IMG/VR virus record: IMGVR_UViG_3300010354_000400
Location: 1 to 29,829 of that record
DNA length: 29,829 nt
Strand: one strand, 5' to 3'
Source: a virus
The translations under genes were made by a program, and so were the position numbers. The notes beneath the pieces were generated by a model, which was not told the DNA's origin, ran no database searches, and saw nothing but the letters and a program-made list of their open reading frames with translations. Shown here piece by piece: positions 227-21,860 of the stretch. The first letter of the stretch is position 1. Every line of letters begins with the position of its first letter.

Positions 227-412
227 CTAAGATCGTTTTTTGCCTTTTTGGTAGAAAGACTTATCAAATTCTCTGTCATCCATTGCTTCATCTCTCTCTT
301 TTTCTCTTTGCTCTTCCTCTTCTTTTTTCTTTTTCTCTGCTTCATCATATTCAATGTCAAGAGATAATTGTTTTTCAGTTAGAAATGGCAATAAATCTTT
401 AAATCTTTTCAT
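227..412 (-). CDS. Small charged protein with capsid-targeting-like N-terminus
   Basis: This 61-residue protein starts MKRFKDLLPFLTE, which matches the pattern of T4 capsid targeting sequences (short amphipathic helix ending in [L/I]xE). The rest is extremely charged, with a run of Lys and Glu around residues 27-45 that should form a single helix. The start is supported by AAGGTGA upstream and by an ATGA overlap with the stop of the preceding gene, so the two are translationally coupled. If cut after LTE, a basic/acidic peptide of about 48 residues would remain in the head. I do not recognise the mature part. It is the last gene of the minus-strand unit that comes from the PAP2 gene. Confidence 0.7.
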   Translation of the reverse strand: MKRFKDLLPFLTEKQLSLDIEYDEAEKKKKEEEEQREKERDEAMDDREFDKSFYQKGKKRS

Positions 413-855
413 GATTCACCTTTTTGTTTATCTTTTATACTGTTAACAAACAAAGCTTTTAATTTTTCATCATTTTGCAAACCAGCAAGTAATTTTTTCA
501 ATGCTGCAAATTCGAGTGCACTTGCACCTTGTCTATCTTTATACCCCAAATGTTTTGCAACTTCTACTTGAGTCATTGGGTTGAATGAATGGAAAGTATC
601 ACGGTGTGGTGTGTTCTCTGCATCTGGAAATGGAACAACTTCATTTGCAAGTCTACCACTTCTTCCTCCTCCTCTTGCATTAGTATTAATAATATCAGAA
701 TCACTTCCAGCAACTGCTCTCATAATCTTTGCATGTTCTGGATCGTATGCAGATGTTGTATCATACAAAGGATCATGAATATTTAATCTTGGATCTTCTG
801 GTGTTCCAAATCTTAAGTCTGTTTCAGATAATAGTTGTTTAAATGTTTTCATCAT
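409..855 (-). CDS. Hypothetical protein with capsid-targeting-like N-terminus
   Basis: The 148-residue protein begins MMKTFKQLLSE, almost the same as the T4 internal-protein leader (MKTYQEFIAE), with a predicted prohead-protease cut after LSE. The remainder contains a Gly/Arg patch (ARGGGRSGR near residue 62) and a C-terminal half that looks helical. No known domain was recognised. Two ATG codons stand in tandem (855 and 852). The first has the leader GGAGTACA, identical to that of the gene starting at 1915, and its ATGA overlaps the stop of the PAP2 gene. I infer a head-packaged protein expressed late from the promoter at 1517-1524. Confidence 0.75.
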   Translation of the reverse strand: MMKTFKQLLSETDLRFGTPEDPRLNIHDPLYDTTSAYDPEHAKIMRAVAGSDSDIINTNARGGGRSGRLANEVVPFPDAENTPHRDTFHSFNPMTQVEVAKHLGYKDRQGASALEFAALKKLLAGLQNDEKLKALFVNSIKDKQKGES

Positions 856-1511
856 TGTACTCCGATTAAATTATTTTTTATTATAGCATTTGCAATGTGC
901 TTTGATATTTCATTATCAGATGGGTAATGTAGTCCTGCATGTAAACGACTTGTTCTCATTTTACATGTGAATGTGTTAATCTCATCCGAATGTAATGGAC
1001 TTAGTTTAGACAAAACATATTCCATGATATATGAATCAAGAGCGTGACCAGATGGATATGCTGGATGAAGTGCTGTGTGTGATATTGCAGTTTGAAATGG
1101 AACATTAAACGCTGCTGCAAATTGTTCTGGTCTTGCTCTGTTATGATATTTTTTAAGATAAAACATCACTGGTGTAATTTTATCAAGAATATCAGGCAAA
1201 AAATGTGATGGTAATATTAATCCAATTTGCCTTGCAAATTTATTGTACATTTCATTTTCATCATTTTCAGAATTTATTGCAAATAATAAATCATCTTCAG
1301 TTACATCATTCATTATTTGTTTTAGCATCATAAGTTCACGAAGTGTTTCATTATCATTGGGATGCTTCATATTTTCAAATTGTTTCATTAATCCAGTTTT
1401 ACGAAAATGAGAGATGATTGGATCATCTTCTCTTATTTTTGCATTGTCGTGTGGTAAAAGATCACCGTACACAACTCTTGGATTATTTAAATATTCTGTA
1501 AATCTTTGCAT
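852..1511 (-). CDS. PAP2-superfamily phosphatase
   Basis: The 219-residue product carries the full PAP2 phosphatase signature with correct spacing: K120-x6-R127-P128, P153-S-G-H156, and S188-R189-x5-H195-x3-D199. H156 and H195 are the expected catalytic histidines. Known members are acid phosphatases, lipid phosphatases and haloperoxidases. There are no membrane segments, so this is a soluble type like class A acid phosphatases. The N-terminus MQRFTEYLNN resembles the capsid-targeting leaders of the neighbouring genes but lacks the final Glu. The start was chosen because a TATAAATA late promoter ends 5 bases upstream; an upstream in-frame extension would run through a terminator. Its substrate is unknown. 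It may act on phospholipid or nucleotide phosphate during lysis or after injection. Confidence 0.85.
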   Translation of the reverse strand: MQRFTEYLNNPRVVYGDLLPHDNAKIREDDPIISHFRKTGLMKQFENMKHPNDNETLRELMMLKQIMNDVTEDDLLFAINSENDENEMYNKFARQIGLILPSHFLPDILDKITPVMFYLKKYHNRARPEQFAAAFNVPFQTAISHTALHPAYPSGHALDSYIMEYVLSKLSPLHSDEINTFTCKMRTSRLHAGLHYPSDNEISKHIANAIIKNNLIGVQ

Positions 1512-1516
1512 AAATT

Positions 1517-1524
1517 TATTTATA
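1517..1524 (-). promoter_or_regulatory. T4-type late promoter TATAAATA
   Basis: The minus strand reads TATAAATA, a perfect T4 late promoter core, and ends 5 bases before the ATG of the PAP2 gene at 1511. In T4, transcription starts about 6 bases after this box, which would place the RNA start at or next to the start codon. Confidence 0.75.
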
Positions 1525-1525
1525 T

Positions 1526-1560
1526 AAAAGAAAACGAGGGGAATCTTCCGCCCCTCGTTT
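1526..1560 (-). terminator. Rho-independent terminator
   Basis: AAACGAGGGG (1532-1541) pairs with CCCCTCGTTT (1551-1560). On the minus strand the stem runs into TTTTCTTTTAT, so it ends the holin/spanin transcript. It sits directly upstream of the late promoter that restarts transcription for the PAP2 unit. Confidence 0.85.
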
Positions 1561-1575
1561 CCTCTCCAATCCCTT

Positions 1576-1830
1576 TCACGGATTATTTTTTCGTGGCAAT
1601 GGATCTCTTTCACTTACATATGAAGGTGGTACGCAATACCAACCTTCAGGAAGTGGAACCTGGTGGTTGCTGAGTACCCATTCCCCCTGTTGGAGTGTGT
1701 ATACCCTCACTCTGGCGTTCGGTCCCAGTCGAATGGGTGAGTCCTCTGGGATGAAGACGGTTCTGCTCCCGCAGCCATTCATCAATACGAGAACCAGCAC
1801 GGCGAAGACGCTCACGGTCAATGTCCGCAT
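1576..1830 (-). CDS. Small lipoprotein, outer-membrane spanin candidate
   Basis: The 84-residue reading begins MRTLTVSVFAVLVLVLMNGC. It has a short basic start, a hydrophobic core and a Cys at the end, as in a lipoprotein signal peptide. The mature part (residues 20-84) is short and rich in Pro. It overlaps the 1646-1915 gene out of frame over 185 bases and extends 70 bases beyond it. Overlapping i-spanin and lipoprotein o-spanin genes next to a holin are typical of Gram-negative phages such as lambda (Rz/Rz1). This start was chosen over longer in-frame ATGs because it gives a clean signal peptide. The Shine-Dalgarno site is weak. The lipobox (LMNGC) is imperfect, so the spanin role is inferred. 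Confidence 0.6.
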   Translation of the reverse strand: MRTLTVSVFAVLVLVLMNGCGSRTVFIPEDSPIRLGPNARVRVYTLQQGEWVLSNHQVPLPEGWYCVPPSYVSERDPLPRKNNP

Positions 1831-1915
1831 CAACTGCTGTATTGCTTGCTTGGATTCTTTTTTCCAACCAGTTAAATAAGGCAAGTGCGACTTGTGCGAC
1901 AATTTTTTCAAGCAT
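1646..1915 (-). CDS. Putative inner-membrane spanin-like protein
   Basis: The 89-residue product has a moderately hydrophobic N-terminal helix (MLEKIVAQVALALFNWLEKR), a charged helical middle (about residues 25-55) and a Gly/Pro/Thr-rich tail. It lies between a holin-like gene and an overlapping lipoprotein gene, the place and gene arrangement of an i-spanin. The N-terminal segment is too amphipathic to be a convincing transmembrane anchor, so membrane insertion is uncertain. The leader is GGAGTACAATG. Possible alternatives are a peripheral membrane protein or an unrelated small late protein. The overlap with the lipoprotein gene is the main reason for the call. Confidence 0.5.
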   Translation of the reverse strand: MLEKIVAQVALALFNWLEKRIQASNTAVDADIDRERLRRAGSRIDEWLREQNRLHPRGLTHSTGTERQSEGIHTPTGGMGTQQPPGSTS

Positions 1916-1927
1916 TGTACTCCAATA

Positions 1928-2122
1928 TTATGCTGCTGGTGGGGTTTTATTCGAGGCATCTTTTGCCATGATAAGACCAATTCCAGCGATTACAGCAGCA
2001 ATTGTTGCTGCAAAATCAACAGCGGTTGTGGCGTCGCCATCAAACCATGCTTTGAGTGCTGCACCCACTGCTACTAATATTGCACCAATTCCTGCGATTG
2101 TAGTATTTCTATTTTCTGCCAT
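1928..2122 (-). CDS. Putative holin, two membrane segments
   Basis: This 64-residue protein has two hydrophobic, Ala/Gly/Ile-rich segments (about residues 8-26 and 36-53) separated by a short charged turn (WFDGD), and ends GIGLIMAKDASNK. The small size, two-helix hairpin and position next to a spanin-like pair fit a class II type holin, which would make holes in the inner membrane at lysis. I recall similar short proteins ending in a 'GLI.AKDA' motif from other phages, but this cannot be confirmed here. The Shine-Dalgarno site (AAAGGAG) is strong. A TATATATA sequence near 2142, one base off the late consensus, may be its promoter. Confidence 0.65.
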   Translation of the reverse strand: MAENRNTTIAGIGAILVAVGAALKAWFDGDATTAVDFAATIAAVIAGIGLIMAKDASNKTPPAA

Positions 2123-3127: not shown

Positions 3128-3242
3128 TGATTATACAATCTACAGTGAAAAAGGTAAGAAACTCGGTAAGTATGACAGTAAAGAAGCAGCAGAGAAAAGA
3201 TTAAAACAGATAGAATGGTTCAAGAGACATAGGAATTATTAA
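3078..3242 (+). CDS. Small basic protein with capsid-targeting-like N-terminus (54 residues)
   Basis: An ATG at 3078, inside the end of the previous gene, opens a 54-codon frame. The product starts MKKFKRILSE, a clear capsid-targeting-like leader with a predicted cut after LSE. The rest (TIRKTGSDYTIYSEKGKKL and on) ends in a basic helix. Its TAA overlaps the ATG of the lysozyme gene (TAATG), so translation is coupled. If cut, it would leave a basic 44-residue peptide, plausible as a packaged DNA-binding peptide. I recall similar short 'YTIYS..GK.LG.Y' proteins from marine phages, but this is unverified. Confidence 0.8.
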   Translation: MKKFKRILSETIRKTGSDYTIYSEKGKKLGKYDSKEAAEKRLKQIEWFKRHRNY

Positions 3243-4009
3243 TGAAAACATTTAAACAATACTTAGAAGAAAATCGTCTAGCATCATTTGCAACCGCAGC
3301 AGCACTAGCATCAGGTGCAATGGCAGCACCCCCAAAACCAGAAGCATTGATGAAAGCGACTGACTATATTAAGGGTAAAGAAAATTTCATTGATACTGCA
3401 AGACCCGATGAGATTGCCACAGGAAAACCGTTAATGATTGGTTATGGAACTACAAGAGTATATCCAGATGGCACACCAATTAAACCAACCGACAAAATCA
3501 CAGAACCAGAAGCAGCACAGCATCTGTCAAGTCACATTAGTAGAATGACTCCACGAATGGAAAAGATCCCAGGTTGGGATGAAATGGATGTCGGAAAACA
3601 AGCAGCACTCATGAGTTTTGCGTACAATACAGGTGGTGCATTCTATGGAGCAAAAGGATATGAAACAATCAGTGGTCATTTACAAAGAAAAGAATGGGAT
3701 AAAGTTCCAGAAGCAATGAAATTATACAATAAATCAGGTGGAAAAGTTAGAGGTGGTCTTGTTACCCGTCGCGCAGAAGAAGGACAAATGTGGTCTGGTG
3801 GTTCTCAAACGAAACCAGCACCAACACCAACTACACCCACAACAACCACACAAAAACCAACAACAGCAAATGTTCACAGCGTAGGCAAGGGTGATAATTT
3901 ATCAAGAATTGCTAAAAAATATGGAACTACAGTTGAAGAGATATTAAAAAAGAATCCATCAATTAAAGATCCGAATAGAATTGATCCAGGACAAAAGATA
4001 AACTACTAA
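3242..4009 (+). CDS. Lysozyme (glycoside hydrolase family 24) with C-terminal LysM domain
   Basis: The 255-residue protein has four parts. Residues 1-10 (MKTFKQYLEE) are a capsid-targeting-like leader. Residues 13-30 are an Ala-rich, weakly hydrophobic stretch like a poor signal peptide. Residues 38-185 are a T4/lambdoid-type lysozyme with the probable catalytic Glu47 (KGKENFID), the IGYGTT motif at 66-71 and RRAEE at 176-180. After a Pro/Thr linker (191-210), residues 211-255 form a LysM peptidoglycan-binding domain. It should cut the glycan strands of peptidoglycan. The leader suggests it is packaged in the head rather than being only the lysis endolysin. The Ala-rich stretch could instead serve export. 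It is coupled to the preceding small gene by TAATG. Confidence 0.9.
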   Translation: MKTFKQYLEENRLASFATAAALASGAMAAPPKPEALMKATDYIKGKENFIDTARPDEIATGKPLMIGYGTTRVYPDGTPIKPTDKITEPEAAQHLSSHISRMTPRMEKIPGWDEMDVGKQAALMSFAYNTGGAFYGAKGYETISGHLQRKEWDKVPEAMKLYNKSGGKVRGGLVTRRAEEGQMWSGGSQTKPAPTPTTPTTTTQKPTTANVHSVGKGDNLSRIAKKYGTTVEEILKKNPSIKDPNRIDPGQKINY

Positions 4010-5492: not shown

Positions 5493-6911
5493 ATGAAGCA
5501 CCAAGAATTTTTACAGCACCTCAGCAATCTCAGTAAAAAACCAATGAATTTAAAAGAAGCACTGGTCGATGATCCTGTTGAACCAGGAAAAGCAAAAGCA
5601 CCTGGAGATGCTGGTGGTAGAGTTGCAAAAGCAGCATACGATTCAACACTTGGTGCATATGGTGACTATTGGAATAGAGAAATGAATAAAGTCAGTGCAA
5701 CTGATGCTGCTGCAGCTGAAAGAATGGATCGTGAGTATGACGATTTACAAAAAGTTGAAGAACTACTAACAAGTGGTCAAATAACTGGAAAACAAGCAAG
5801 TGAAATGACAAGAACTTGGAAGAAAAGAGCACTTGCAAATCAAGGAGAAGATAAAGTTCAAAACTGGTTAGAAACTGGAGAAAGAGTAGCAGATACTGCA
5901 TTTAATGTTGCAACAGATGCTCTTACTTATACTCCAGCATTTGGTGTTGCTGCTGGCCTGAAAGGATTAAAATCAGCAGTTGATACATCAAAAGCATATG
6001 CTGGCGTTCCCACTTATAAATCAAAAGAAGAAAATATTCAAAGTGCGGTAGAACAAGGAGTTGGATCAGTTACTCTTGGTGGTATAAAATATATCAAACC
6101 AATCACTCAATATGGCGCAGGACTTGGCAAAAAAGCAGCAGAGAAAACAGTAGAAAAAGTAGCAGCAACTAAATTAGGAAAACCAGTAGTCGATACAGGT
6201 AGAAAAGTAGTACAAAAAACTGAAGAAATTGCTGGTGCTGTATCACAAAAAGCAGGACAACTCACACAACAAGCAAAAGAGAAAGTGATTGCATCAACTC
6301 CACAAGCAGTAAAAGATGCAGCAGCAAGAGCAGCATCTACTGCAAAAAATATAAATCAAAGATTTGCTTATGACCCAGCAGGAGCCGCTGGAGGTGCAGT
6401 AATAGCAGATTTCACAACACCAGAGGAAGCAGGAATTGGGGAGCGTCTTGGAAGAATAGCAACTGGTATGTTTGTTGGTGGTAAAATTGCACCAGGTCTT
6501 GTAAAGCCATTAGAAGCAGGATTCAAGCAATCTTCTGTGGGTAGAGGTGTTGCTGCTGTCGAGAGAGCAGCAGATACAGCACTAGGAATGGCAAAAAATA
6601 TCCACAAAATGCCAGAAGTTATGGTAACTCAAGCAGTTAGAGATACATTAAAAACTGGAAGACCCCCAATAGCACCAAAACAATCAAATATTTCTTCTGC
6701 ACACGCTGCTGAACAAGGTGAAGCAAGAGTTGCAACAGCACATCAACGAGAACAAGGTGATGCAAAACTTTTTGATATACACGCTGCTGAACAAGGTGAA
6801 GCAAAAATAGCAGCACAAAGAGCAAGAGATGAAGCAGCAAGACTGAGAAGAAACGAACTAATCAAAAAAGGTAAGATCAAACCAGAACCACCAACAGAGG
6901 GACCACAATGA
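5493..6911 (+). CDS. Ala-rich hypothetical protein with 13-residue tandem repeats
   Basis: The 472-residue protein starts MKHQEFLQHLSN, related to the targeting leaders of its neighbours but without the final Glu. Residues 30-150 are helical and charged. Residues 150-390 are Ala/Gly/Lys-rich with amphipathic stretches. Residues 404-442 are three 13-residue repeats (HAAEQGEARVATA and variants), followed by a basic Pro-rich end. The low-complexity, long-helix character resembles internal or ejected virion proteins, but no family was identified. It is 4 bases from the previous gene and overlaps the next by ATGA, in the same late operon. Confidence 0.75.
   Translation: MKHQEFLQHLSNLSKKPMNLKEALVDDPVEPGKAKAPGDAGGRVAKAAYDSTLGAYGDYWNREMNKVSATDAAAAERMDREYDDLQKVEELLTSGQITGKQASEMTRTWKKRALANQGEDKVQNWLETGERVADTAFNVATDALTYTPAFGVAAGLKGLKSAVDTSKAYAGVPTYKSKEENIQSAVEQGVGSVTLGGIKYIKPITQYGAGLGKKAAEKTVEKVAATKLGKPVVDTGRKVVQKTEEIAGAVSQKAGQLTQQAKEKVIASTPQAVKDAAARAASTAKNINQRFAYDPAGAAGGAVIADFTTPEEAGIGERLGRIATGMFVGGKIAPGLVKPLEAGFKQSSVGRGVAAVERAADTALGMAKNIHKMPEVMVTQAVRDTLKTGRPPIAPKQSNISSAHAAEQGEARVATAHQREQGDAKLFDIHAAEQGEAKIAAQRARDEAARLRRNELIKKGKIKPEPPTEGPQ
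6702..6818 (+). repeat. 39-bp tandem repeat, three copies, in coding sequence
   Basis: Three in-frame 39-bp units encode HAAEQGEARVATA, HQREQGDAKLFDI and HAAEQGEAKIAAQ. The outer copies share a perfect 26-bp match (6701-6726 and 6779-6804), and the middle one is more diverged. This suggests unit duplication with later drift in a surface-exposed helix. Confidence 0.75.
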
Positions 6912-7918
6912 GCAATAATTTTCGTACAGAACAAGAAAAGATAAAGAATTTCCTAACTGAAGATATAATAGGAGTTGCAGCAAGAGAAGTTGCAAAAGGT
7001 GCAGCAAAGTCTGCTGCTAAAGAAGCTGCTAAAAGTGCAGCAAAGTCTGCTGCTAAAACAGCAGCAAAAGAAGCAGGAGAGCAAGTCGCCAAGGCAGGAA
7101 TAGAAACTGTCGCTGCTCCAGTCGCTGCTGCTGCTGAAAAAGCAGTATCTACAGAACCAAAAGCAGCAACTGTAACCACAATTCCACCAGAACTTGAACC
7201 AATTTTAAGACCAAGATCAAAACCAGAAGACAAACCAGAAATTAAACCAGATGATAAATCAGAATCAAAACCAGAAGCAGTAGTTCCTGGTCAAGAAACT
7301 CCATCGTGGGTTGATTCTTGGGGTCTTCCACTTCTTGGTAAATTGCTAGGATTAAAACTAGGATTTAACCCATTCGCGGGTGGTCAACCACAACCACAAA
7401 GTAAATCAGAAACTGGAACAAAAACAAAGACTGCAACTGCAACTAAAACAAAAGAAAGTGATCTCACTGGTCCAGATTTACTTTCTGTACCAAGAGGTTC
7501 ATCAACTCCACAGTATGCATATTCTTCGACAAACTTTGCACAAGAAACTTCCCCTGTATTTCAGAGAGAAGTTAGTAGGAATAAAGTTGCAGAAGATTTA
7601 AATCTTGCAGATGTTTTAAGAAAGAAAACCATTCTAAACCTTTTATCAGAAGAAGATATAAAGAGTCTAGAACCTAGCATAAGTGGTCCTCGTTCTCCAC
7701 AAGCAGCAAGAATGCAAGAGAGAAGTCTCAGCACAATGTCAACACCAGACACTCGTAAAAATAGAGCAAATGCAATTCAAAGAATGAAAGATGCAATTGC
7801 TGCCATGAATGTTGAGACACCAAAACCAACAATCAATCCAAAATACGCGGGTATGCCTATCAGTGAAAAATCTAAAAAGATTCCAGCAACAAAGAAGATT
7901 CTCCAGAAACCATCTTGA
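6908..7918 (+). CDS. Ala/Lys-rich protein with targeting-like N-terminus and histone-H1-like repeats
   Basis: The 336-residue protein has EKIKNFLTED at residues 10-19, a targeting-like peptide with a possible cut after LTE. Residues 22-60 are a run of AAK/SAAK repeats resembling histone H1 tails or bacterial H1-like proteins. Residues 95-130 are a Pro/Lys/Asp-rich linker. A hydrophobic patch (WGLPLLGKLLGLKLGF, about 138-153) could touch membrane. A second LLSEED motif lies near residue 250. Overall it is basic and probably DNA-binding, but no family is known to me. It overlaps the previous gene by ATGA. Its stop codon lies in the -35 box of the sigma70 promoter that follows. Confidence 0.75.
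   Translation: MSNNFRTEQEKIKNFLTEDIIGVAAREVAKGAAKSAAKEAAKSAAKSAAKTAAKEAGEQVAKAGIETVAAPVAAAAEKAVSTEPKAATVTTIPPELEPILRPRSKPEDKPEIKPDDKSESKPEAVVPGQETPSWVDSWGLPLLGKLLGLKLGFNPFAGGQPQPQSKSETGTKTKTATATKTKESDLTGPDLLSVPRGSSTPQYAYSSTNFAQETSPVFQREVSRNKVAEDLNLADVLRKKTILNLLSEEDIKSLEPSISGPRSPQAARMQERSLSTMSTPDTRKNRANAIQRMKDAIAAMNVETPKPTINPKYAGMPISEKSKKIPATKKILQKPS
6999..7057 (+). repeat. 23-bp perfect direct repeat in the AAK-repeat coding region
   Basis: GTGCAGCAAAGTCTGCTGCT and three more bases occur at 6999-7021 and 7035-7057, a 36-bp period. They encode duplicated GAAKSAAK/SAAKSAAK units of the H1-like stretch. Confidence 0.7.
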
Positions 7919-9012: not shown

Positions 9013-12000
9013 ATGATAAATGAAAATGAAACAACTGGATCTTTAGGACCAATTACCATAACTTTCGGCAAATTTAGTCCACCTCATGTGGGTCATCATG
9101 GTGCTGCTCAGTTTGGAGCAGATTATGCTAGAAAAAATAATATGGACTTCAGAGTGTATACAAGCAAAAAGCACATGAAGAAATTAAAAACACCAAGACC
9201 ACACGCAGAAACTCCACTCAGTCCAGAACAAAAAGCAAAACATCTTCCAAGAGTTCTTGGTGTCGATAAAGTTCATTTTGAAGAAAGTCCATATTCAACA
9301 ATAGAGAGCTTACTCGCTGCTGGTCATTCTCATGTACATATAATTCTTGGTTCTGACCGCATAGAAGATACTGCTCCAGGATTACGAGAAAAATACGGAG
9401 ATAGAGTTGTTCCTGTTCAGTTTGGAGAAAAAAGATCAGAAGGTAAAAAGGGTATTGCTGGTGCATCAAGCACAAAGATGCGTGAACATGCAAGAGCAAA
9501 CAACTTTGAAGCATTCAAAGGAATGTTACCAGGACATGTACCAGAAGACCACGCAAGAGAAATGTTCAGTGATGTTCGTGGTGGTTTAAAAGCAGCAAAG
9601 TTAGATTTAGTAGAGAATACAAATCGTAAATTTAGTCGTAAAGAACCACTATTCCCATCAATTGAACATGCTGCAGATCACTGGGGTCTTGTTCACATTG
9701 GTAATGGAAAATACCGTCACTTCACTGGTGCTGGTCATGTATTTGGTACTGATGAATTAAAATTCATGCAACACTATGGAGTCATGCGTGACCCAGAAGT
9801 ACAACATCAGTACGAACAAATACTTGGAGAAGAAGTATCTGCACAAACAAGAATTAAACTTTCTCGCATTGCAAAAAGAACTGCAAAGATTCGTGCTGCA
9901 AAAAGAAGAGCGCGTGTTAAAAGAAGAAGAAATGTCAAGCAATTAAAAGGTAGAGCGACACAAGATGTAAAGAATCAACTTCGTCATCGTTATTACAAAG
10001 GAAGTTGGCAGAAGTTAGGATTTTCTACTCGCGCAAGAATTGATTCAAATGTTAACAAGAGAAAGAAAATTGCAGATTCAATGGTTCGCAGAATCTTTCC
10101 AGATGTTATACGAGGAGAGAATGAAAGACTTCGCAAAGTCAATACAAGAAAAGAATCAGTTGAGGAATTGCTTCTTCCATTATTAACAGAAGCAAGAATA
10201 GGTCAAAGAAAATTAAGATCTGGTAAAATTGGTGCAAATAGTGCAGCAGAGAGATCGGGTGCACGCAAAAGAAAAAGAAAACAAAGAGCAAAAGAAGACG
10301 CATCAAAAAGCACAGGAAAAACAACAGGCTCTGTTAAAGGTCATTATGCAGTAGTTCGTGCTACCTCTGGTAAGAACGAAGGTGATCTTATGATTGTAGA
10401 TCGTCATTCATACAATTCAAGAGTTCATGACATTGTTGTTGCTCCAGATAAGTTCACAATGGCAGCTGGTGAAAAATTACTTGATGATGAAAACTTCACA
10501 CAAACAGATTCATCTGTCTCTCTCTTTGGAAAAATAAAAGGAGAGAAATCAGCAAAACTTCCAGCAAATAAACAAGAAGCAAAATTTGCTGAACCAGCAA
10601 AAAAAGCAAAAGCAAAAGCAAAAGCAGAAAAAGAAGATAAGGGACCAACACCAGAACAAAAGAAAGCACAAAAACAAATGATGCCAGAAGAACCTGGTGA
10701 ATGGGATGTTGTTCCTGGTAATATTGTTGCAAAAAGAAAACAAGGAAGATATGACACTGAAGCAACATCACATGATGCTTCAACTCTTGAACTTGGTCTT
10801 ATTGCAAGTGTGAACATGGCACTGGGAATGGATCCAAAAACTCAAGTCTCAGAAGGATTAATGTCAAAAGATGATATGATGAAAGTAATTAAAAATCCAC
10901 ATCAATCATTTTTACCAGCAGCGCAAAAAATTGCACAAGCAGTAATTAAAAAGTTTGGTCCAGGAATATCAATCCAATCAACAGGTAAAACTATAGAAGG
11001 TGTTGACTTAACAAAAGAAGCACAAGCAGCAGGAATAGTAAGCAAAACTGCAAAGACCGATGCATTAATCAAAGAAAGAAAAACAGGAAAAATAGTTTCT
11101 AGAGCTTCTGTAAAAATTGGTGATGAAACACAAGCAGCATCTGGTAATTGGCAAGACACTCATAGAGGATTGCAAGTTTCAATTGATGTAGCAAAAGAAC
11201 TTGGAATAAAAGTTCCAGAAAAAGCACAGAAAAAAATAAAAGAAATGCAAGAATTTCTTGCTAGTGATGAATATGGAGGAACTTCTCTTACAACAGCAGG
11301 ACCAACAGAGTTATATACAGTTGGTGGAAACAGAGGAGTATTTAAAGGCGAAGACAAAAGAATTTTAAGCAAAGAAAAATCAAATCAAAAATTAACTGAT
11401 ATGTATAATGATTTTGAAAAGAGTTTCCCAGAGATTGCTGCAATATACAAATACGTTCAAGTAACAGGTATTCACAAATTTGATAAAGATAGTCCAGCAG
11501 TAGCAGACACAATGCTTGCATCAACACTTGACGGTACTCAAGTCAAAATTGAACCAATCACAGTTGATCTGATGAAAAAAACTAATTCGCAATTAATATC
11601 AAGATTTAAATCTGGAAGAGTAAAAGGAAGTAAGGCAGAGGAAAAAGAAGTACAAAGATTAATCAAAATTGCTGAAAGTCAAGGGAAAAAAATTCAAGCA
11701 GAAGAGTTAAGAAAAATATATGCATACAGAAATGTTGCTAGACTGTTAATGGAATCTAAGTTTGAAAAAGCAAACGAAAACTACGACACAACCCCTTTGA
11801 CTAAACTTGATGGATTTCAACTATTAAAGATGTTAGTAGAAAATGCATATGAAGATTCCATGACTCAAATTGACACACCAGAACTGCCACCAGATCAAAT
11901 AAAAGCAGCACTTGAAGATATGAAGCAAATTGCTGAACAAAATCCACTCATGTGGTTTGAGATAATGTATCCATTATTCGAATACGAAATGACACCAACA

Positions 12001-12384
12001 ACAATCAATTGGTTAGATGTTTTACGAACAGATGGATACACAACAAATAAAGTGTATATAAATGGTAGAGAAATTCTAATACCAGTTGAAACACCAATGA
12101 ATTATCCTGCACCTGGAATGGAAATTCCAACGGTCAATGTCGAAGAATCATATCTAACAGAGAAAAGAAATTATCGCAAAGAATATGATAATTATCATGG
12201 CAAACCAGAGCAGAGAAAGAATCGTGCTGGAAGAGTAAAAGCAAGAAGATTAATGATAAAGATGGGAAGAGCACGCAAAGGTGACGGCAAGGATATAGAT
12301 CATAAAGACGGAAATCCAAGAAATAACGGAAAGAACAATCTACGAGTTCGTAGCAAATCAGCAAATAGGGCAGACAATGATTAA
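9013..12384 (+). CDS. Large multidomain protein: nucleotidylyltransferase, basic modules and C-terminal HNH-like domain
   Basis: This 1123-residue protein is a chain of modules. Residues 12-190 are a cytidylyltransferase-like domain with HVGH (25-28), LGSDRIED (112-119) and a late SSTKMR motif (152-157). Residues 280-375 are a very basic helical module (IAKRTAKIRAAKRRARVKRR). Residues 394-510 form another unit. A Lys/Ala-rich linker follows (520-545). Residues 615-760 contain KTDALIK...RASVK, which may be a degenerate PD-(D/E)XK-like core. Residues 1053-1123 are HNH-like, with DGKDIDHKDGNPRNN. Candidate prohead-protease sites ([L/I]xE) fall between modules: LGE 271-273, LTE 391-393, LME 912-914, LTE 1048-1050. 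I read it as a late head-cargo polyprotein. This is inference; it could also work uncut. Confidence 0.8.
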   Translation: MINENETTGSLGPITITFGKFSPPHVGHHGAAQFGADYARKNNMDFRVYTSKKHMKKLKTPRPHAETPLSPEQKAKHLPRVLGVDKVHFEESPYSTIESLLAAGHSHVHIILGSDRIEDTAPGLREKYGDRVVPVQFGEKRSEGKKGIAGASSTKMREHARANNFEAFKGMLPGHVPEDHAREMFSDVRGGLKAAKLDLVENTNRKFSRKEPLFPSIEHAADHWGLVHIGNGKYRHFTGAGHVFGTDELKFMQHYGVMRDPEVQHQYEQILGEEVSAQTRIKLSRIAKRTAKIRAAKRRARVKRRRNVKQLKGRATQDVKNQLRHRYYKGSWQKLGFSTRARIDSNVNKRKKIADSMVRRIFPDVIRGENERLRKVNTRKESVEELLLPLLTEARIGQRKLRSGKIGANSAAERSGARKRKRKQRAKEDASKSTGKTTGSVKGHYAVVRATSGKNEGDLMIVDRHSYNSRVHDIVVAPDKFTMAAGEKLLDDENFTQTDSSVSLFGKIKGEKSAKLPANKQEAKFAEPAKKAKAKAKAEKEDKGPTPEQKKAQKQMMPEEPGEWDVVPGNIVAKRKQGRYDTEATSHDASTLELGLIASVNMALGMDPKTQVSEGLMSKDDMMKVIKNPHQSFLPAAQKIAQAVIKKFGPGISIQSTGKTIEGVDLTKEAQAAGIVSKTAKTDALIKERKTGKIVSRASVKIGDETQAASGNWQDTHRGLQVSIDVAKELGIKVPEKAQKKIKEMQEFLASDEYGGTSLTTAGPTELYTVGGNRGVFKGEDKRILSKEKSNQKLTDMYNDFEKSFPEIAAIYKYVQVTGIHKFDKDSPAVADTMLASTLDGTQVKIEPITVDLMKKTNSQLISRFKSGRVKGSKAEEKEVQRLIKIAESQGKKIQAEELRKIYAYRNVARLLMESKFEKANENYDTTPLTKLDGFQLLKMLVENAYEDSMTQIDTPELPPDQIKAALEDMKQIAEQNPLMWFEIMYPLFEYEMTPTTINWLDVLRTDGYTTNKVYINGREILIPVETPMNYPAPGMEIPTVNVEESYLTEKRNYRKEYDNYHGKPEQRKNRAGRVKARRLMIKMGRARKGDGKDIDHKDGNPRNNGKNNLRVRSKSANRADND

Positions 12385-13627
12385 GTTATCAGAAGATCTC
12401 CGTCGTTGGTTCAAAGAAAAATGGACTGCACAAGATGGTTCAGAGTGTGGTGACTATAAAGGTCGAGGAAGAGTAAAGTGCAGACCATCACGCAAAGTAT
12501 CTGATGAAAGTCCAGAAACTTGGAGTGAAATGTCACCAAAGGAAAAGAAAAAAGCAGTCAGACTCAAACAAAAAGCACACAGAGAAGGAAAGCAATTTAG
12601 TTCTCATAAATCAGGTAAAACGTGGGATGGTAAGAAAAACAAGTACAGACCAAAAAAGAAAAGGTTAAAAGAAATGTTTGAAGCACTAAAACAACTATTG
12701 GCAGAAGCAAAAGAGAAAAAACCATACAAGGGATTCAAGAAAGGCAAGAATCACCCAGAGGGTGGTCTGTCTCGCGCAGAAGCACGCAGACAAGGAATTC
12801 ATGCTGGTATTGAAACCAAAGAAGAAGCAAAGCGCAAAGGTGGTTTTGGTAAACTTTCTGGTAAAACACAAAAACGTAGAAAGTCTTTCTGTGCTCGTAT
12901 GTGTGGAATGAAGAGAAGAAGAACTAGTGCAAAAACTGCCAGAGATCCAAAAAGCAAGATCAATGCAGCACTCCGAGTGTGGGGATGCAAATGTGGTGGC
13001 AAATCTAGAAAACAAGTTAAAGAAGAGTTCATTGGAATGATTCTTGAGAAGAAGGGTTCTTGCTGGAGTGGCTATAAGCAAGATGGTATGAAGAAAAAAG
13101 GTGGAAGAATGGTTCCAAACTGCGTTCCCACCAACGAGTCAGTTCAATTAAACGAAGGCAAAAATAAACCAAAGAATAAAAAATTATGGGCAAAAGCAAA
13201 AGCACTTGCTCGTCAAAAATTTGATGTATATCCATCAGCGTATGCAAATGGATGGGCAGCAAAATGGTATAAAAAGAAAGGTGGTACTTGGGTGTCAGAA
13301 AATTTAAATTATATTCAACAATCAGTTAAAGAAAAATTCCTTGCAGAAGGATGTGGTTGTGGTGGAGGTAATAAACCAAAACCAAAACCAAGACCAGTTC
13401 AAAAACCAAAAGGAAATGATCTGAACGAAGAAGTAAAGAACGAAGCACATCGTGGAAAAATGTCAAGAAAGATGATTAAGAGTAGAGATGCCCGAGCAAA
13501 AAGACTAAAAGGTGTAGCAAAAGTTGTTGTTAAGGGAGATACACCTCTTAATGCTCAACATCGTCTTGCAACTTATATTGAATGGAAAATGAAAAAGGGC
13601 AAAAAGAAGAAAGGCGATGCTGACTAA
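12377..13627 (+). CDS. Very basic modular protein, probable polyprotein of DNA-binding peptides
   Basis: The 416-residue, Lys/Arg-rich protein is built of short modules separated by [L/I]xE sites: LAE at 108-110, ILE at 222-224, LNE at 258-260, LAE at 322-324 and LNE at 349-351. The modules are: 1-100, starting SEDLRRWFKEKW; 111-215, with RRKSFCARMCGMKRRRTSAK; 225-255, a Cys/Gly unit ending MVPNCVP; 261-310, with YPSAYANGWAAKWYKKKGG; and 352-416, a basic tail. I recall several of these as separate small proteins in marine phages and some large viruses, without known function. Cys pairs could bind zinc. The start overlaps the preceding stop, so translation is coupled. Confidence 0.8.
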   Translation: MIKLSEDLRRWFKEKWTAQDGSECGDYKGRGRVKCRPSRKVSDESPETWSEMSPKEKKKAVRLKQKAHREGKQFSSHKSGKTWDGKKNKYRPKKKRLKEMFEALKQLLAEAKEKKPYKGFKKGKNHPEGGLSRAEARRQGIHAGIETKEEAKRKGGFGKLSGKTQKRRKSFCARMCGMKRRRTSAKTARDPKSKINAALRVWGCKCGGKSRKQVKEEFIGMILEKKGSCWSGYKQDGMKKKGGRMVPNCVPTNESVQLNEGKNKPKNKKLWAKAKALARQKFDVYPSAYANGWAAKWYKKKGGTWVSENLNYIQQSVKEKFLAEGCGCGGGNKPKPKPRPVQKPKGNDLNEEVKNEAHRGKMSRKMIKSRDARAKRLKGVAKVVVKGDTPLNAQHRLATYIEWKMKKGKKKKGDAD

Positions 13628-14159: not shown

Positions 14160-14534
14160 ATGTTAAAATTAAATAGTGATAATTTTATTCTTTATGCGAT
14201 GAAGATGTATAATAGCACATCATCCTCTGGTCTTACTGAATTTTATGAAGATATTAATCGAATAAAATACATTAAAAGACTGTTGATAAAGTATAAAAAA
14301 AATCATGATTTAAAAGAAAGACTTATTCTTAATCATATAATAATATTACAAAATGTATTTGGTGCAGAAGCGTGTTCTAGAATTTTATTTCATAAAATTC
14401 ACAAGGATTTACATTCATATTTAAAATCGTTTTTGGCATACCTACAATATCTACCAAAGTATATACCAGAGGTAGATATAACAACTATAAATACTGACCA
14501 CAGAATTGATAAAATTTTAAGAGAATTAAAATGA
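14160..14534 (+). CDS. Conserved-looking helical protein of unknown function
   Basis: The 124-residue protein is all-helical and lacks low-complexity sequence. It contains LTEFYEDINRIKYIKRLL and LKERLILNHIIILQNVFGAE. I recall this pattern ('F..DL.RIKYIKRL' with 'LKERLILNHII') from conserved small proteins of T4-like marine phages whose function is unknown; I cannot verify it here. It overlaps the following ligase-like gene by ATGA. The low-complexity-free, well-packed look suggests an ordinary soluble late protein and not head cargo. Confidence 0.75.
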   Translation: MLKLNSDNFILYAMKMYNSTSSSGLTEFYEDINRIKYIKRLLIKYKKNHDLKERLILNHIIILQNVFGAEACSRILFHKIHKDLHSYLKSFLAYLQYLPKYIPEVDITTINTDHRIDKILRELK

Positions 14535-15955
14535 TACATGTAATAGATCTGATAAAACAAATTACTTACATCACAGAAGCAGCGGAAGCAGAAACAACTG
14601 GTCACATGACTCACATGTCTGACTGGAAACTTTATGGCAATTCTATGGAAGATCTAGAACACGCAGAAGCAATGCACAGATTTATGAATGGTCAAGAAAC
14701 AGAAGGTCACAGTGTATCCTGGAAGATAGACGGTGAGACTAGTTTAACCTTTGGTAAAAAGCAAGACGGTAGACATTTTGTTGCTTACAAAAGCGCAAAG
14801 AATCATTTTCATACTCCAGAAGAAATAGAAGCAGCAGGAGTTCCTTGGGCAGAAGCAGGAAAAAGATTATTAAAATATGTGACTGAGATGAATATTAAAC
14901 CAGGTCATGTATTTCAAGGTGATTTGCTGTGGACTAACCGTGACAAAGAAATTCATGACGGGACACATATAAAACCAAATACTATTCCGTATAAACCAAC
15001 TCATCATGATGTAGGTATTGCTGTACACAGTCAATATGAAATGGATCATGCTGGCAATTTAAATAGAACAACAAACGCACCAGAGGTTTCACAAATTAAA
15101 CATGAAAAAGTATTTGCTCCAGATTTACAAATCAAACCTGGTCAAATAATGCTCACAAGAGAACGAAACAAAGCAGTTGGTGAATCTCTCACAAAAGCAA
15201 GATCTCTAATGACACCAGAGGTTCAAGAGTATGCAAATTCACTTGCAACCAATAAAAATATGCAAAAGTTCATACAAGAGTATGCAAATGAAGTAGTTGC
15301 AACTACTGGTAAGAGAGATGTTGAGTCGTTAAAAACATATCTTCATAAACCAATCATGGGCACAAGAACATCTTATGGGTATATGGAGAAAGCAACACAA
15401 AGAAACAAATCAGAAAAAAGCAGAGCAGGACTTGTAAAAGAAATAGAAGATCACATAAACCAACACGGTGATAAGTTATCAGCAATGTTCCAATCAATGC
15501 AACATGTTGCTGATGCAAAACACCACATGCTAGATCAATTCAAGGCACATGGTCACACAGCACCATTACAAGTTCATGGTGGTGGAGAACACGAAGGTGT
15601 GGTTTCAGCGTTTGCTAAAAAGAAACCAGGAATGATTAGTGGAATTATTGGTCGTCTTGCAAAACTCACCAGAGAAGGAATATCTGGATTCAGTGCAAGA
15701 AACCGTAGACGAGGTGTTGAAAAGGGATACACCAAAGAACGTGAAATTCCTCACCCAGAAGTACCATTTATCGAAAACAACAATCTTAAAGAAGAAATGG
15801 CAGTTGGTACTGGTGCTGGTCTTGCAGGACTTGGTGGACCAAAAGATGTTGCAGTTCCTGTTGAAGCACAGAAGCGTTACACTCGCTCTGGTCCAATGAG
15901 AAGAAAAAGAAAGATTGCAGAGTCTTTTTTAAATTCCAATAACTTCATGAAATAA
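14531..15955 (+). CDS. Ligase-like nucleotidyltransferase with capsid-targeting-like N-terminus
   Basis: The 474-residue protein begins with a leader ending ITYITEA (residues 11-17), with a predicted cut after ITE. Residues 58-200 look like the adenylation fold of ATP-dependent ligases and capping enzymes: K65-I-D-G68 fits the KxDG nucleotide-attachment motif, GRHFVAYKS (about 80-88) fits the following strand, and HVFQGDLLW (about 125-133) resembles the ligase 'xEGE'-type motif. Residues 230-340 are helical. The C-terminal part is basic and Gly-rich (RLAKLTREGISGFSARNRRR), with a NLKEEMAVGTGAGLAGLG segment. Phages carry RNA or DNA ligases, but activity here is unproven. It overlaps the preceding gene by ATGA and overlaps the antisense resolvase gene by 27 bases at the end. 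Confidence 0.7.
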   Translation: MIHVIDLIKQITYITEAAEAETTGHMTHMSDWKLYGNSMEDLEHAEAMHRFMNGQETEGHSVSWKIDGETSLTFGKKQDGRHFVAYKSAKNHFHTPEEIEAAGVPWAEAGKRLLKYVTEMNIKPGHVFQGDLLWTNRDKEIHDGTHIKPNTIPYKPTHHDVGIAVHSQYEMDHAGNLNRTTNAPEVSQIKHEKVFAPDLQIKPGQIMLTRERNKAVGESLTKARSLMTPEVQEYANSLATNKNMQKFIQEYANEVVATTGKRDVESLKTYLHKPIMGTRTSYGYMEKATQRNKSEKSRAGLVKEIEDHINQHGDKLSAMFQSMQHVADAKHHMLDQFKAHGHTAPLQVHGGGEHEGVVSAFAKKKPGMISGIIGRLAKLTREGISGFSARNRRRGVEKGYTKEREIPHPEVPFIENNNLKEEMAVGTGAGLAGLGGPKDVAVPVEAQKRYTRSGPMRRKRKIAESFLNSNNFMK

Positions 15956-17076: not shown

Positions 17077-18267
17077 TTACTCAAACGGATGTTTTTCGTC
17101 AAACATCTTATTATCAAAATTTAATTTAAACTGTTCCAGTCTCTTTGCTGGTATCTTTAACCCAGACACAAGAGTATATAACCGTAGAGTTGGTTTGTCA
17201 TCCTCGTATATGCCTCTGTGGAAGGTCGCATTTGGCACTAGGGACGATAGGGTATCAAACCCATAAGATAGACTGTCCATGAGTCCTGGGGTGTTTGCCA
17301 TCAATTCCTTGCCACCAACAGCACAACAAGCAGCAAATGTACCATTTGAGATATCAATTTCAGCAAGAAGAGTCTTGTCTATATTACTTTTAATTGATTT
17401 TGAGATTTCAGTTTCATTTGAAGTCTTGGATGCTGGTTTATTTCCATCAATGTTCATCTTAGACACACCCATTACCATCACACCACCACAACGGAAGGTT
17501 GTAGCGTAATCAGTTGGATCAAACGAGGTGTATTGAGAAGGATGCTTGGAAAGTACATTAAAGATATGAAACAAACCAGAAACTGTACTGTTTATAGTAT
17601 TCCAGAATTCCTTGACTGTTAGATTGCTATACATTTTTTCAATTCTAGCATTGTCAAGAATAACAAGAGGTGATATTTCCTTGCGTTCTGCTTGACCACC
17701 TATTTGTTTGAGAACTCGGTAAGCGTTATAAGAAACCTTTGGGGATGTGGACTCACCGCGAGTAGGTAGAGACATGACAACACCTACACGCTCTTCTGGG
17801 TTATCATGACCAATGAACTTCATATACTTCTTTGCAATGTCAATTAGTACAAGTGATGAACCGCTTCCGCTACCACCACCAGCACCAATACAAACCATAA
17901 TGTGGTCCACTTTTGTGCCATAGACTTTACGCATGAGATCAAATATCTCTTGTTTGTATTTGACTGTTGCATTTGCTCCACGCTCCATATCTTTTCCTGC
18001 ACCCTCTTCTCCTATATCTAATAGAAGTTTTTGTGTATCTGGAATGCCTAAAAGTGCAAGATCCTGTTTAGATGTATTGACTGTTATGCATTTCTTATAT
18101 CCACGGTCGTAGAAAGCCTTTGCAAGTCTTCCACCACCCTGACCAGAACCTATCCATGCAAATACATGTGATCCGCCACTCTCGTCCTGTACTTCTTCCT
18201 GTACAGAATCTGGTTCTTTATAATCTTCTAACTCTAGGTCTGGTATTTGTAAATCGGGAATATCCAT
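17077..18267 (-). CDS. Tubulin/FtsZ-superfamily GTPase
   Basis: The 396-residue protein has the full set of tubulin/FtsZ loops in order: T1 GSGQGGGR (40-47), T3 GEEGAGKDMERG (86-97), the T4 signature GAGGGSGSG (128-136, the FtsZ GGGTGTG region), T5 PTRGE (168-172), T6 VILDNARI (202-209) and helix H7 (WNTINSTVSGLFHIF). T7 is FDPTDYATTF with D250 and D253, the acids that drive GTP hydrolysis in the next subunit. It should therefore form dynamic filaments. An acidic 33-residue N-terminal extension (IPDLQIPDLELED) is unusual. Phage tubulins are known for centring or transporting phage DNA (PhuZ, TubZ). AAGGAG precedes the start, 9 bases after the cohesin-like gene, so it is the last gene of a late operon. 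It is much nearer to FtsZ in motif shape than to eukaryotic tubulin. Confidence 0.9.
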   Translation of the reverse strand: MDIPDLQIPDLELEDYKEPDSVQEEVQDESGGSHVFAWIGSGQGGGRLAKAFYDRGYKKCITVNTSKQDLALLGIPDTQKLLLDIGEEGAGKDMERGANATVKYKQEIFDLMRKVYGTKVDHIMVCIGAGGGSGSGSSLVLIDIAKKYMKFIGHDNPEERVGVVMSLPTRGESTSPKVSYNAYRVLKQIGGQAERKEISPLVILDNARIEKMYSNLTVKEFWNTINSTVSGLFHIFNVLSKHPSQYTSFDPTDYATTFRCGGVMVMGVSKMNIDGNKPASKTSNETEISKSIKSNIDKTLLAEIDISNGTFAACCAVGGKELMANTPGLMDSLSYGFDTLSSLVPNATFHRGIYEDDKPTLRLYTLVSGLKIPAKRLEQFKLNFDNKMFDEKHPFE

Positions 18268-18276
18268 TTTTTCTCC

Positions 18277-19578
18277 TTAAGGTAATATACCGTTAACTGT
18301 TGCTCCGTTTTGTGCTCCAAGAACACTGACTCCTGGAATACTGCTGCCAATTGGCATAGATTCATCGGATACCCATAGACCAATAAATCTTGGATCATTT
18401 TGTTTTGCAATTTCAATCTTTGTTGTATTGAAGTCTGCAACAACTTTAAAGTTTAAAGTAACAATTAAAGTTTCTTTATCATAAAAAGTTTTATTTCCAA
18501 GTTGACTCAACCAATTATGTGATGCATTACCATCCTTTGGTACTGAAGATTCATTAATGTTTCCTGCACCTGGCATTGGAAGAGCATTTTCCATGCTTGG
18601 TGGTGCACCAGTTTTATTTAATCCTGTAAATTCAAGAACATTTGGATCCCAAACAAAGTTGGTGCATACAGATGAAAGCAGTTGTGGCTTTGTCTCTGGT
18701 TTAATCATAATCTGAACTGGAATCGTATCACCAATCTTAAACTTAGTAACTGGTGCTTTCAAGTAATGAGCAACCTTGTAATCTGCTGGAACACCAAACA
18801 TAATTTGCTCACCTTGGTTTCGAGTTTCCTTCAAAACGTTTGTGCCAGTTGTTGGGCTTCCATCAATCTTGGTTGTGATTGTGTTTCCTTGACTTATGGT
18901 TGTTGGGAGTGTTCTGATGAATGCTCTCTGTTGTCCCCATACAGGTAGATAAAAATCATCCTTGACCAAGAATCGAATTTTTCCTAGAAGACGATATCCA
19001 CCTTGCCACATATATCCATCAAAGTTCCATTGATAATACATTGGTTTTAGTGATGGGGTGCGTAATTCTGGTGCTTTCAGTGCTTCTGAGTGAAAGAGAA
19101 ATACGCCATCACTGAGCATTGTCTGTTGTACCTTTGTTGCATCCATAACATTTTTATCAAATGCTGGACCAAAAGCAGTGGTATCAACTGGTAATAACTC
19201 TAATCTGGTGTGATCGTATTGTACTACAACATCAGATGAACGATAAATGCTGAACATAGCAACAGTTTTACCGTTCACAACTTTTGTCTTGGTAATGGGC
19301 ATTGCCATAATATCTGCTGTTATGATCTGTCCTTTGTGAGCAATTTGCCCGTATCTAGTGTTACCATTCCATGTTTTATTTGCCCAATCACAAGAGAGAT
19401 ATAGTTGATATCCAATTGTAGGATCAATAAAATATGGTGTATATACAGTTGCAGGGGGAACTGGAACTAACTGAATTGTTCCATCTGGTTGCGGAACTTT
19501 AGTTGGTGGTGTTTGTGCATCCACTGAAAATGTAATTACAAACGCAAACAGTAAACCTAGTAAATTTTTAATTTTCAT
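18277..19578 (-). CDS. Exported protein with cohesin-like domain
   Basis: The 433-residue protein has a clear signal peptide (MKIKNLLGLLFAFVITFSVDAQ, likely cut after about residue 21). The body is beta-rich and Trp/Tyr-containing. The C-terminal third (about residues 280-420) resembles a cohesin-type beta-sandwich: KIGDTIPVQIMI, then VWDPNVLEFTGLN, later LIVTLNFKVVADF, as in 'yDp..lef' cohesin motifs. No anchor or C-terminal barrel signal is seen, so it is probably periplasmic, released, or attached by binding. A secreted beta-sandwich protein in a phage late operon is unusual. AAGGAAATC precedes the start, which overlaps the nuclease gene by 11 bases. The N-terminal domain is unidentified, and the cohesin call is moderately sure. 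Confidence 0.75.
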   Translation of the reverse strand: MKIKNLLGLLFAFVITFSVDAQTPPTKVPQPDGTIQLVPVPPATVYTPYFIDPTIGYQLYLSCDWANKTWNGNTRYGQIAHKGQIITADIMAMPITKTKVVNGKTVAMFSIYRSSDVVVQYDHTRLELLPVDTTAFGPAFDKNVMDATKVQQTMLSDGVFLFHSEALKAPELRTPSLKPMYYQWNFDGYMWQGGYRLLGKIRFLVKDDFYLPVWGQQRAFIRTLPTTISQGNTITTKIDGSPTTGTNVLKETRNQGEQIMFGVPADYKVAHYLKAPVTKFKIGDTIPVQIMIKPETKPQLLSSVCTNFVWDPNVLEFTGLNKTGAPPSMENALPMPGAGNINESSVPKDGNASHNWLSQLGNKTFYDKETLIVTLNFKVVADFNTTKIEIAKQNDPRFIGLWVSDESMPIGSSIPGVSVLGAQNGATVNGILP

Positions 19579-21101: not shown

Positions 21102-21860
21102 TTAGAACTTAAATCCAACACCAAATGACATTACAGTATCCATGTCCTCAAAATCAAGATCATCGGTGACTGCAAATCCTACGCCAGCATTTAGCGCAAC
21201 GTTATTAGCAATGTTATATGATGCATTTGGTCCAACAACAATAACATTTTGACCATCAGTGTAAAATTGTGAAAGTTCTCCACCAACCTTAAACTTGTCA
21301 GATACCTTGTACTTGACTGAAGTAGTTGCTTCAAAAACATTATCTTCCACAAATCCACCAAACACGGGCATGTAAGTATAGTCATTGACTAGAGTATACT
21401 TGACTGTTTGATTAACATCAACATCACCCCAAGATAGTCCAAATACAGCACCACCCGAGAAAGTTGCATCACTTGATGAATAATCACCATCAAGTGGTAG
21501 TGCTACTCCACCAACAAGGTCTACCCAAACCTTGTCGAAAGTAAATGCCTTCTTATATTTAAGACCAACTTGGACATCGCCTAGTCCAGTTGAATATCCA
21601 GAAAAATTATTATCACTGTTATTATAAATTGGGAGATTAATATCTGCTTGAATATTTTCGTCAATATTAAAAGCGAGAGTTGTATCCCATTGTGTGATAT
21701 CGCCACCATCGAAGTTATAAATTGTTACTTCTTCGTTGATGCTAATCTTAAAAGTGTCCGCACAGCAACTTTCCTTGTTCTGTGCTTCTTGTGCCATTGC
21801 AAATCCGTTTGCAAAAAGTGCTACGAGTGCTGATAATACGATAGTTGAGAATTTCTTCAT
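21102..21860 (-). CDS. Phage-encoded outer-membrane beta-barrel protein
   Basis: The 252-residue protein has a typical signal peptide (MKKFSTIVLSALVALFANGF, cut near AMAQ). The mature part is a series of alternating beta-strands: YSTGLGDVQVGLKYKKAF, KVWVDLVGGVALPL, FEATTSVKYKVSDKFKVGGE, and others. It ends SFGVGFKF with a terminal Phe, the sorting signal of outer-membrane barrels. A Cys pair (SCCAD) follows the leader. It resembles porin-like or 'transporter' barrels. It may alter the host surface, for example to exclude other phages, or help uptake; the sequence does not tell. AAGGAG lies before the start. It is the last gene of the RNR unit and is closed by a terminator. Confidence 0.85.
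   Translation of the reverse strand: MKKFSTIVLSALVALFANGFAMAQEAQNKESCCADTFKISINEEVTIYNFDGGDITQWDTTLAFNIDENIQADINLPIYNNSDNNFSGYSTGLGDVQVGLKYKKAFTFDKVWVDLVGGVALPLDGDYSSSDATFSGGAVFGLSWGDVDVNQTVKYTLVNDYTYMPVFGGFVEDNVFEATTSVKYKVSDKFKVGGELSQFYTDGQNVIVVGPNASYNIANNVALNAGVGFAVTDDLDFEDMDTVMSFGVGFKF

Follow-up and report, generated by a model that had tools for sequence, protein, structure and literature searches.

Shuffled basic modules behind head-protease-type sites: a probable head-cargo polyprotein in a T4-like phage

We propose that a 416-aa chain encoded in a 29.8-kb virus record (hereafter the window, i.e., the whole stretch of DNA analysed) is probably a modular head-cargo polyprotein, a variant of the T4-type internal proteins that gp21 would cut into six peptides. 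The reading frame (Table 1) is intact and encodes a 47.3-kDa product with a pI of 10.3 and a net charge of +75. In the proposed mechanism, this precursor of small basic units would enter a T4-type prohead as one uncut chain, the prohead protease (gp21 family, Peptidase_S77) would cut after the Glu of each [L/I]xE site, and six separate basic peptides would remain in the head, where they would be packed alongside the DNA and, as with T4 internal proteins, probably leave with it on ejection. The window carries T4-like phage genes of the gp43, UvsX, gp41 and primase type, and its DNA polymerase is nearest to those of T4-like cyanophages, with S-CREM2 among the best matches. Because no recognised head genes lie in the 29.8 kb, the head-gene context was drawn from relatives.

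Table 1. Features of the 416-aa chain and of neighbouring candidate cargo genes (window coordinates).
Feature	Position	Strand	Description
Basic multi-module chain gene	12377..13627	+	416 aa; ATG overlaps upstream gene's stop; relatives have similar leader and start
Site LSE-6	12386..12394	+	leader MIKLSE/DLRRWF; relatives MLNE/D, MDIKE/D; podovirus copy starts MSLRRWF, without leader
Module M1	12395..12664	+	two conserved Cys, 'LRRWFKEKW...CG...KCRPS'; C-terminal half of Pfam DUF5872
Site LKE-99	12665..12673	+	first of two in M1-M2 linker
Site LAE-110	12698..12706	+	[L/I]xE motif before M2
Module M2	12707..12997	+	DUF6321-like; predicted to fold alone with high confidence
Site ILE-224	13040..13048	+	[L/I]xE motif before M3
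Module M3	13049..13147	+	two-Cys mini-unit 'CWxGY...VPNC'
Site LNE-260	13148..13156	+	[L/I]xE motif before M4
Module M4	13157..13300	+	'VYPSAYANGWAAKWY'; N-terminal half of Pfam DUF5872; 46-85 aa standalone ORFs in other contigs
Site LAE-324	13340..13348	+	[L/I]xE motif before M5
Unit M5	13349..13414	+	GCGCGGG plus Lys-Pro repeats; few relatives only
Site LNE-351	13421..13429	+	[L/I]xE motif before M6
Module M6	13430..13612	+	'EVVNxxHxGxMT...RDxxAK...RLATYIE'
1123-aa upstream chain	9013..12384	+	nucleotidyltransferase (residues 10-205) and HNH nuclease match (residues 1051-1122); phrog_3041, phrog_4590
Lysozyme-LysM protein	3242..4009	+	Phage_lysozyme 3.1e-17, LysM 3.4e-13 (Pfam); MKTFKQYLEE leader, LxE-type site near residue 10
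DUF6267 protein	14531..15955	+	Pfam DUF6267 2.9e-22, residues 25-359; leader ending ITE-16 just before domain

Seven [L/I]xE motifs occur in the chain, versus 2.0±1.3 expected from its composition, and none of the seven falls inside a module body, with bodies making up 80% of the chain. Whole-chain shuffles reached seven sites in 0.19% of cases, and 0 of 20,000 also left the bodies site-free. In T4, the gp21 motif is L/I-x-E with cleavage after the Glu, internal proteins carry 10-residue capsid-targeting leaders, and in IPIII an Asp at position 10 prevents processing (PMC9026906); the N-terminal leader here is MIKLSE only, versus those leaders of about 10 residues. A reading of the sequence alone had named five sites (last residues 110, 224, 260, 324 and 351), all of which are present, and had missed LSE-6 and LKE-99. 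The six small basic peptides that it expected from cutting are recovered by computation (2.8–12.8 kDa, pI 9.4–10.7), plus a 6-aa leader. Its description of Lys/Arg- and Cys-rich units stands for charge in all six and for Cys in four of six, units 261–324 and 352–416 having no Cys; a Cys pair is kept in each of M1, M2 and M3. Its claim that four sites lie in amphipathic stretches or at their ends was not confirmed: among the named sites the hydrophobic moment is high at site 110 only, and the mean over 74 junctions (0.263) equals that of shuffled linkers (0.250±0.015), so that amphipathicity is rejected as a common property of the linkers. In a low-confidence AlphaFold2 model, three of the five named sites lie at a helix end.

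That whole-chain model (pTM 0.21) has linkers with pLDDT <50 and better ordered regions in M3, M4 (~70–92), M6 (~80–85) and the M2 core; M2 modelled alone reaches a pLDDT of 90.9. A single conserved fold for the whole chain, a finding that the sequence-only reading had named as speaking against its proposal, is ruled out by the pTM together with the shuffled module order described below. Solved structures searched by sequence and by fold gave no significant match to the chain, and the alpha-defensin matches of the whole-chain model were discarded (E>2). NCBIfam gave no match for the 416 aa, family searches found in them no peptidase (zincin being the commonest) or known effector domain, and no family or fold match pointed to a DNA-modifying enzyme.

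Individual modules do have families. M1 matches Pfam PF19197 (DUF5872) at 2.7e-12 (47.8 bits versus a curated cut-off of 27.5) over the C-terminal half of the profile only, and the whole DUF5872 profile corresponds to M4 followed by M1. M2 matches phrog_4689 (1.3e-11); against the PF19846 (DUF6321) profile it scores 18.6 bits, under the curated cut-off of 28.5, and in BFVD its predicted fold and sequence match DUF6321 proteins, mostly from cyanophages, and resemble only those. Residues W6, F7, W11, G16, C19 and C30 of M1 are invariant in A3, and the invariant residues of M2 in A2 lie around SFC.RM and LR.W.C.

The proposed joints recur in relatives. Six unit profiles were run against 81 sequences, comprising 79 related loci plus the window and a copy of its own locus, and the modules were found in at least 20 different combinations and orders, and also alone, in other marine phage contigs (e.g., M3-M2, M1-M4-M2-M6, and M1 plus M4 as a pair). 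The [L/I]xE motif had been fixed beforehand by the sequence-only reading and was used without tuning. It lies 10 residues or fewer upstream of 64 of 79 non-redundant internal module starts, versus 14.3±3.3 in shuffled linkers (maximum 25, n=500) and a rate of 8.6% at other positions of the same ORFs. Control motifs ([L/I]E, [L/I]xxxE, Ex[L/I], [L/I]xK and others) stayed near expectation; those above it were [L/I]xxE, whose occurrences overlap joints of the LLxE type, and [VM]xE, possibly a relaxed form of the site. P3 at the joints is L or I (57/30), and P2 is any of 16 different residues. Within module bodies there are 22 sites per 11,962 residues (0.18 per 100 aa) versus 334 per 14,356 outside. 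Loci gathered independently with M4 alone, and aligned on its PSAYA core 21 residues into the module, repeated the pattern, with the site in 20 of 30 chains >90 aa versus 0 of 27 shorter ORFs (Fisher 2.6e-8). Both the separability of the units and the presence of protease-type sites at their starts far beyond chance, as first proposed from the sequence, are supported. The Glu lies at a fixed distance from M1 and from M6, so a structural role before these two modules is possible. A phage collection searched by tblastn (E 0.01) returned nothing for M4 alone and a single match for M1 alone; short basic queries score low, and profiles and IMG/VR scans were therefore used instead.

In the set of named phages, M1 or M2 is encoded by a small gene of its own in podoviruses and other small phages; these genes have neither leader nor site, and several lie close to capsid genes. 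Together with the standalone M4 copies, they agree with the sequence-only reading, in which several of the units exist as separate small genes in other marine viruses. T4-like cyanophages carry M1–M4 in the T4-GC119 family, between gp16 and gp17 in several genomes, a frequent position of this gene family, which has been described only as a hypothetical protein within a mobile cassette (PMC3037559). The strict motif precedes 12 of 27 cyanophage module starts versus 2.4 expected, and many of the others have a relaxed hydrophobic-x-Glu (V/M/F/T-x-E). At podovirus module starts, neither form was found (0/6); the direction of this difference is clear and the numbers are small (Fisher 0.065). In S-SCSM1 the module gene is ORF29, between terS and terL, with most joints in the relaxed form (VSE, MTE and FNE joints occur), and no modules were found in the NMNAT gene cluster of that phage.

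Relatives of the chain also appear among virion proteins. By sequence, S-CREM2 gp160 consists of M1, M3 and M4 with LSE, LEE and ISE joints, gp137 ends in M2, and the cytidylyltransferase gp154 begins MKNFSSFLTE. Contaminants are possible in CsCl virion preparations. Mass spectrometry of CsCl virions detected gp160 by 7 unique peptides (13.1% coverage), gp137 by 4 and gp154 by 3 (PMC10665884 Table 3). S-SCSM1 ORF29 (M1, M4, M3, M2) is annotated as a virion protein, in a phage whose study reports virion mass spectrometry (PMC9602691). The P-HM1 annotation attaches the note 'similar to Synechococcus phage S-SM1 protein' to GC119 and to virion genes (gp13, 14, 15, 18, 19, 20, 21, 23, gp3, GC190, GC400), not to terminase or replication genes; from this pattern we infer that GC119 was seen in S-SM1 virions.

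A separate observation concerns gp160 itself (L138:25343-26236), which contains a near-copy of the N-terminal segment of the phage's own major capsid protein (GFTGAAAPEGPVAGYDPLM versus GFTGAAAPGGPNAGFDPVM). S-SCSM1 ORF97, another product with a virion annotation, starts with a similar segment. The segment in gp160 is possibly a capsid-mimic targeting element.

A suitable protease and its head genes accompany the modules in several contigs. Genes of the gp21 family (S77) occur in G011–G014, which also carry module genes (G012 and G013 look near-identical), and in three more contigs whose M4 carries the site. Another was found in the contig that encodes a relative of the window's FtsZ-like protein. 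The module gene of G014 directly precedes a gp17-gp18-gp19-gp20-gp21-gp22-gp23-like cluster (gp17–20 and gp22 being named from position and sequence appearance), and those of G011 and G013 adjoin gp23. No gp21 was found in those contigs of the M4 search that lack the site, of which several exceed 50 kb; since all of them are fragments, the relation is one of association only. Standalone module copies in contigs and phages where no gp21 was detected are free of sites. Neither gp21 nor gp23 was found in the window or its nearest fragments, which are short. The window is tied to gp21 through relatives; the nearest of these is a contig whose FtsZ-like protein is 66% identical and which has no module match. 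The first proposal of a head-peptide precursor cut by the prohead protease hence gains support from head genes beside modules and from virion detection, both in relatives only; in the window phage itself, gp21 would be the protease and would cut at all sites.

The same motif is rich in the scaffold, and the chain could instead belong to the scaffold or core, in the manner of T4 gp22, gp67 and gp68, whose gp21 fragments mostly exit the head and have no later role. The gp22 proteins of four related phages have LxE throughout (2.5–4.9 per 100 aa), and cleavage of T4 core proteins yields fragments that mostly leave the head (PMC9026906). In related gp23 proteins the LxE sites lie mainly within the N-terminal ~60 aa and are few thereafter; both patterns are those expected for gp21 substrates. 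The module chain, judged by its site distribution, is like neither gp22 nor a random protein, as no sites lie within its modules. We regard a scaffold role as unlikely, since sites are confined to linkers and scarce in bodies, invariant Cys and Trp residues are kept in the modules, standalone module genes stand beside podovirus capsid genes, and multi-module relatives have been detected in mature virions (PMC10665884 Table 3; S-SCSM1).

It is hardly more probable that the chain is packaged uncut, as a multi-domain effector like polyvalent proteins in which the hydrophobic-x-Glu joints serve as flexible linkers or scaffold-docking motifs. The virion RNA polymerase of phage N4 is packaged unprocessed (PMC5512222), and the relaxed motifs at many cyanophage joints would be compatible with such a role. 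However, the L-x-E register is specific, shifted forms being near chance save the overlapping [L/I]xxE; podovirus and standalone copies do without the motif; and in related phages the gp23 propeptide is marked by it too. A gp21-cut head-cargo polyprotein remains our preferred reading.

If the peptides are so released, their job may be DNA packing or early help in a new host. DNA packing is a realistic candidate, held here at somewhat under an even chance, and is favoured because of the charge and because lysines of T4 internal proteins contact DNA (PMC3012670). Host takeover or anti-defence is the less likely of the two, but the mosaicism of the modules means that anti-defence roles, as for IPI, would also fit. 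The chain most likely originated by fusion of once separate cargo genes, with leader plus site kept at each joint.

Several neighbouring genes in the window have MKTFKxxLxE-type leaders. In the 1123-aa chain immediately upstream, the nucleotidyltransferase lies between LxE-4 and LxE-201 and the HNH match starts one residue past LTE-1050; it is probably, on this layout, a second cargo polyprotein of the same build, with no relatives confirmed in a scan of viral contigs. Such nucleotidyltransferases have been seen repeatedly in cyanophage virions (PMC3037559, PMC9602691, PMC10665884). The lysozyme-LysM and DUF6267 proteins are, by their leaders, probable further head cargo, and a sister locus (L114) spreads similar cargo over several genes, the majority of them opening with a leader and site.

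Elsewhere in the window we observed a Tubulin/FtsZ-like GTPase (17077-18267, minus strand; PF00091 at 5.5e-11, TIGR00065 below cut-off) with relatives in 17 viral-contig loci. Two minus-strand proteins have apparent signal peptides, one with an outer-membrane beta-barrel-like family match (21102-21860; PF13557, 1e-8) and one with no family match (18277-19578). A PAP2 phosphatase (PF01569) by overlapping small membrane- or lipoprotein-like frames (1576-1980, 1646-1915, 1928-2122) forms a lysis-cassette-like region (409-2122, minus strand). Two Ala/Lys-rich proteins with imperfect short repeats have LxE near their N-termini (5493-7918, plus strand), and three EQGEA-like copies spaced 39 nt lie there at 6711-6809.

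We lean slightly towards a broader proposal, a polyprotein strategy for head loading in marine T4-like phages, in which cargo is recombined at the sites and any unit placed after an L/I-x-E joint is delivered by the virion as a protein of its own. If true, the repertoire—from two-Cys basic units to a nucleotidyltransferase, an HNH nuclease and a lysozyme—evolves by joint-to-joint shuffling, and the motif predicts hidden virion cargo from sequence alone. Module shuffling would likewise explain why T4-GC119 varies in length and make-up among cyanophages. If the head protease separates fused cargo, large 'hypothetical' genes beside the packaging genes of abundant ocean viruses could be read as strings of delivered proteins, with the joint motif marking the start of each, a prediction testable directly on existing virion mass-spectrometry data.

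The protease gp21, its L/I-x-E motif, head-carried proteins and multi-domain polyvalent proteins are all known already. The classic T4 internal proteins are few in number. In the open-access literature we found no account of serially joined small modules, each preceded by a head-protease joint and exchanged among ocean phages, and nothing on DUF5872 or DUF6321 in phages. The chain would resemble T4 IPI, IPII, IPIII and Alt as variable head cargo with a short leader ending in L/I-x-E and, in T4-like relatives, a gp21-type protease; however, T4 has one cargo per gene, while here six modules share a chain, with a site before each, and shuffle between chains. In T4 gp22-type scaffolds the sites are dense throughout, unlike the seven here. 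With polyvalent proteins of phages and conjugative elements (PMC5512222) it has in common many domains in one chain that is, or is predicted to be, virion-carried, as well as mosaicism and proposed processing, yet those proteins often embed zincin or other peptidase domains and enzymatic effectors, whereas the window chain has no peptidase domain, head-protease-type sites and tiny basic modules. DUF5872 supplies M1 and M4 as its halves and M2 is DUF6321-like, but the DUF5872 profile runs M4 then M1, while in the window the halves are separate, in the opposite order and each with its own site. The closest counterpart described, the T4-GC119 family of marine cyanophages (PMC3037559), shares M1, M2, M3 and M4 and has hydrophobic-x-Glu at many joints; to these the window chain adds M5 and M6, and stricter sites.
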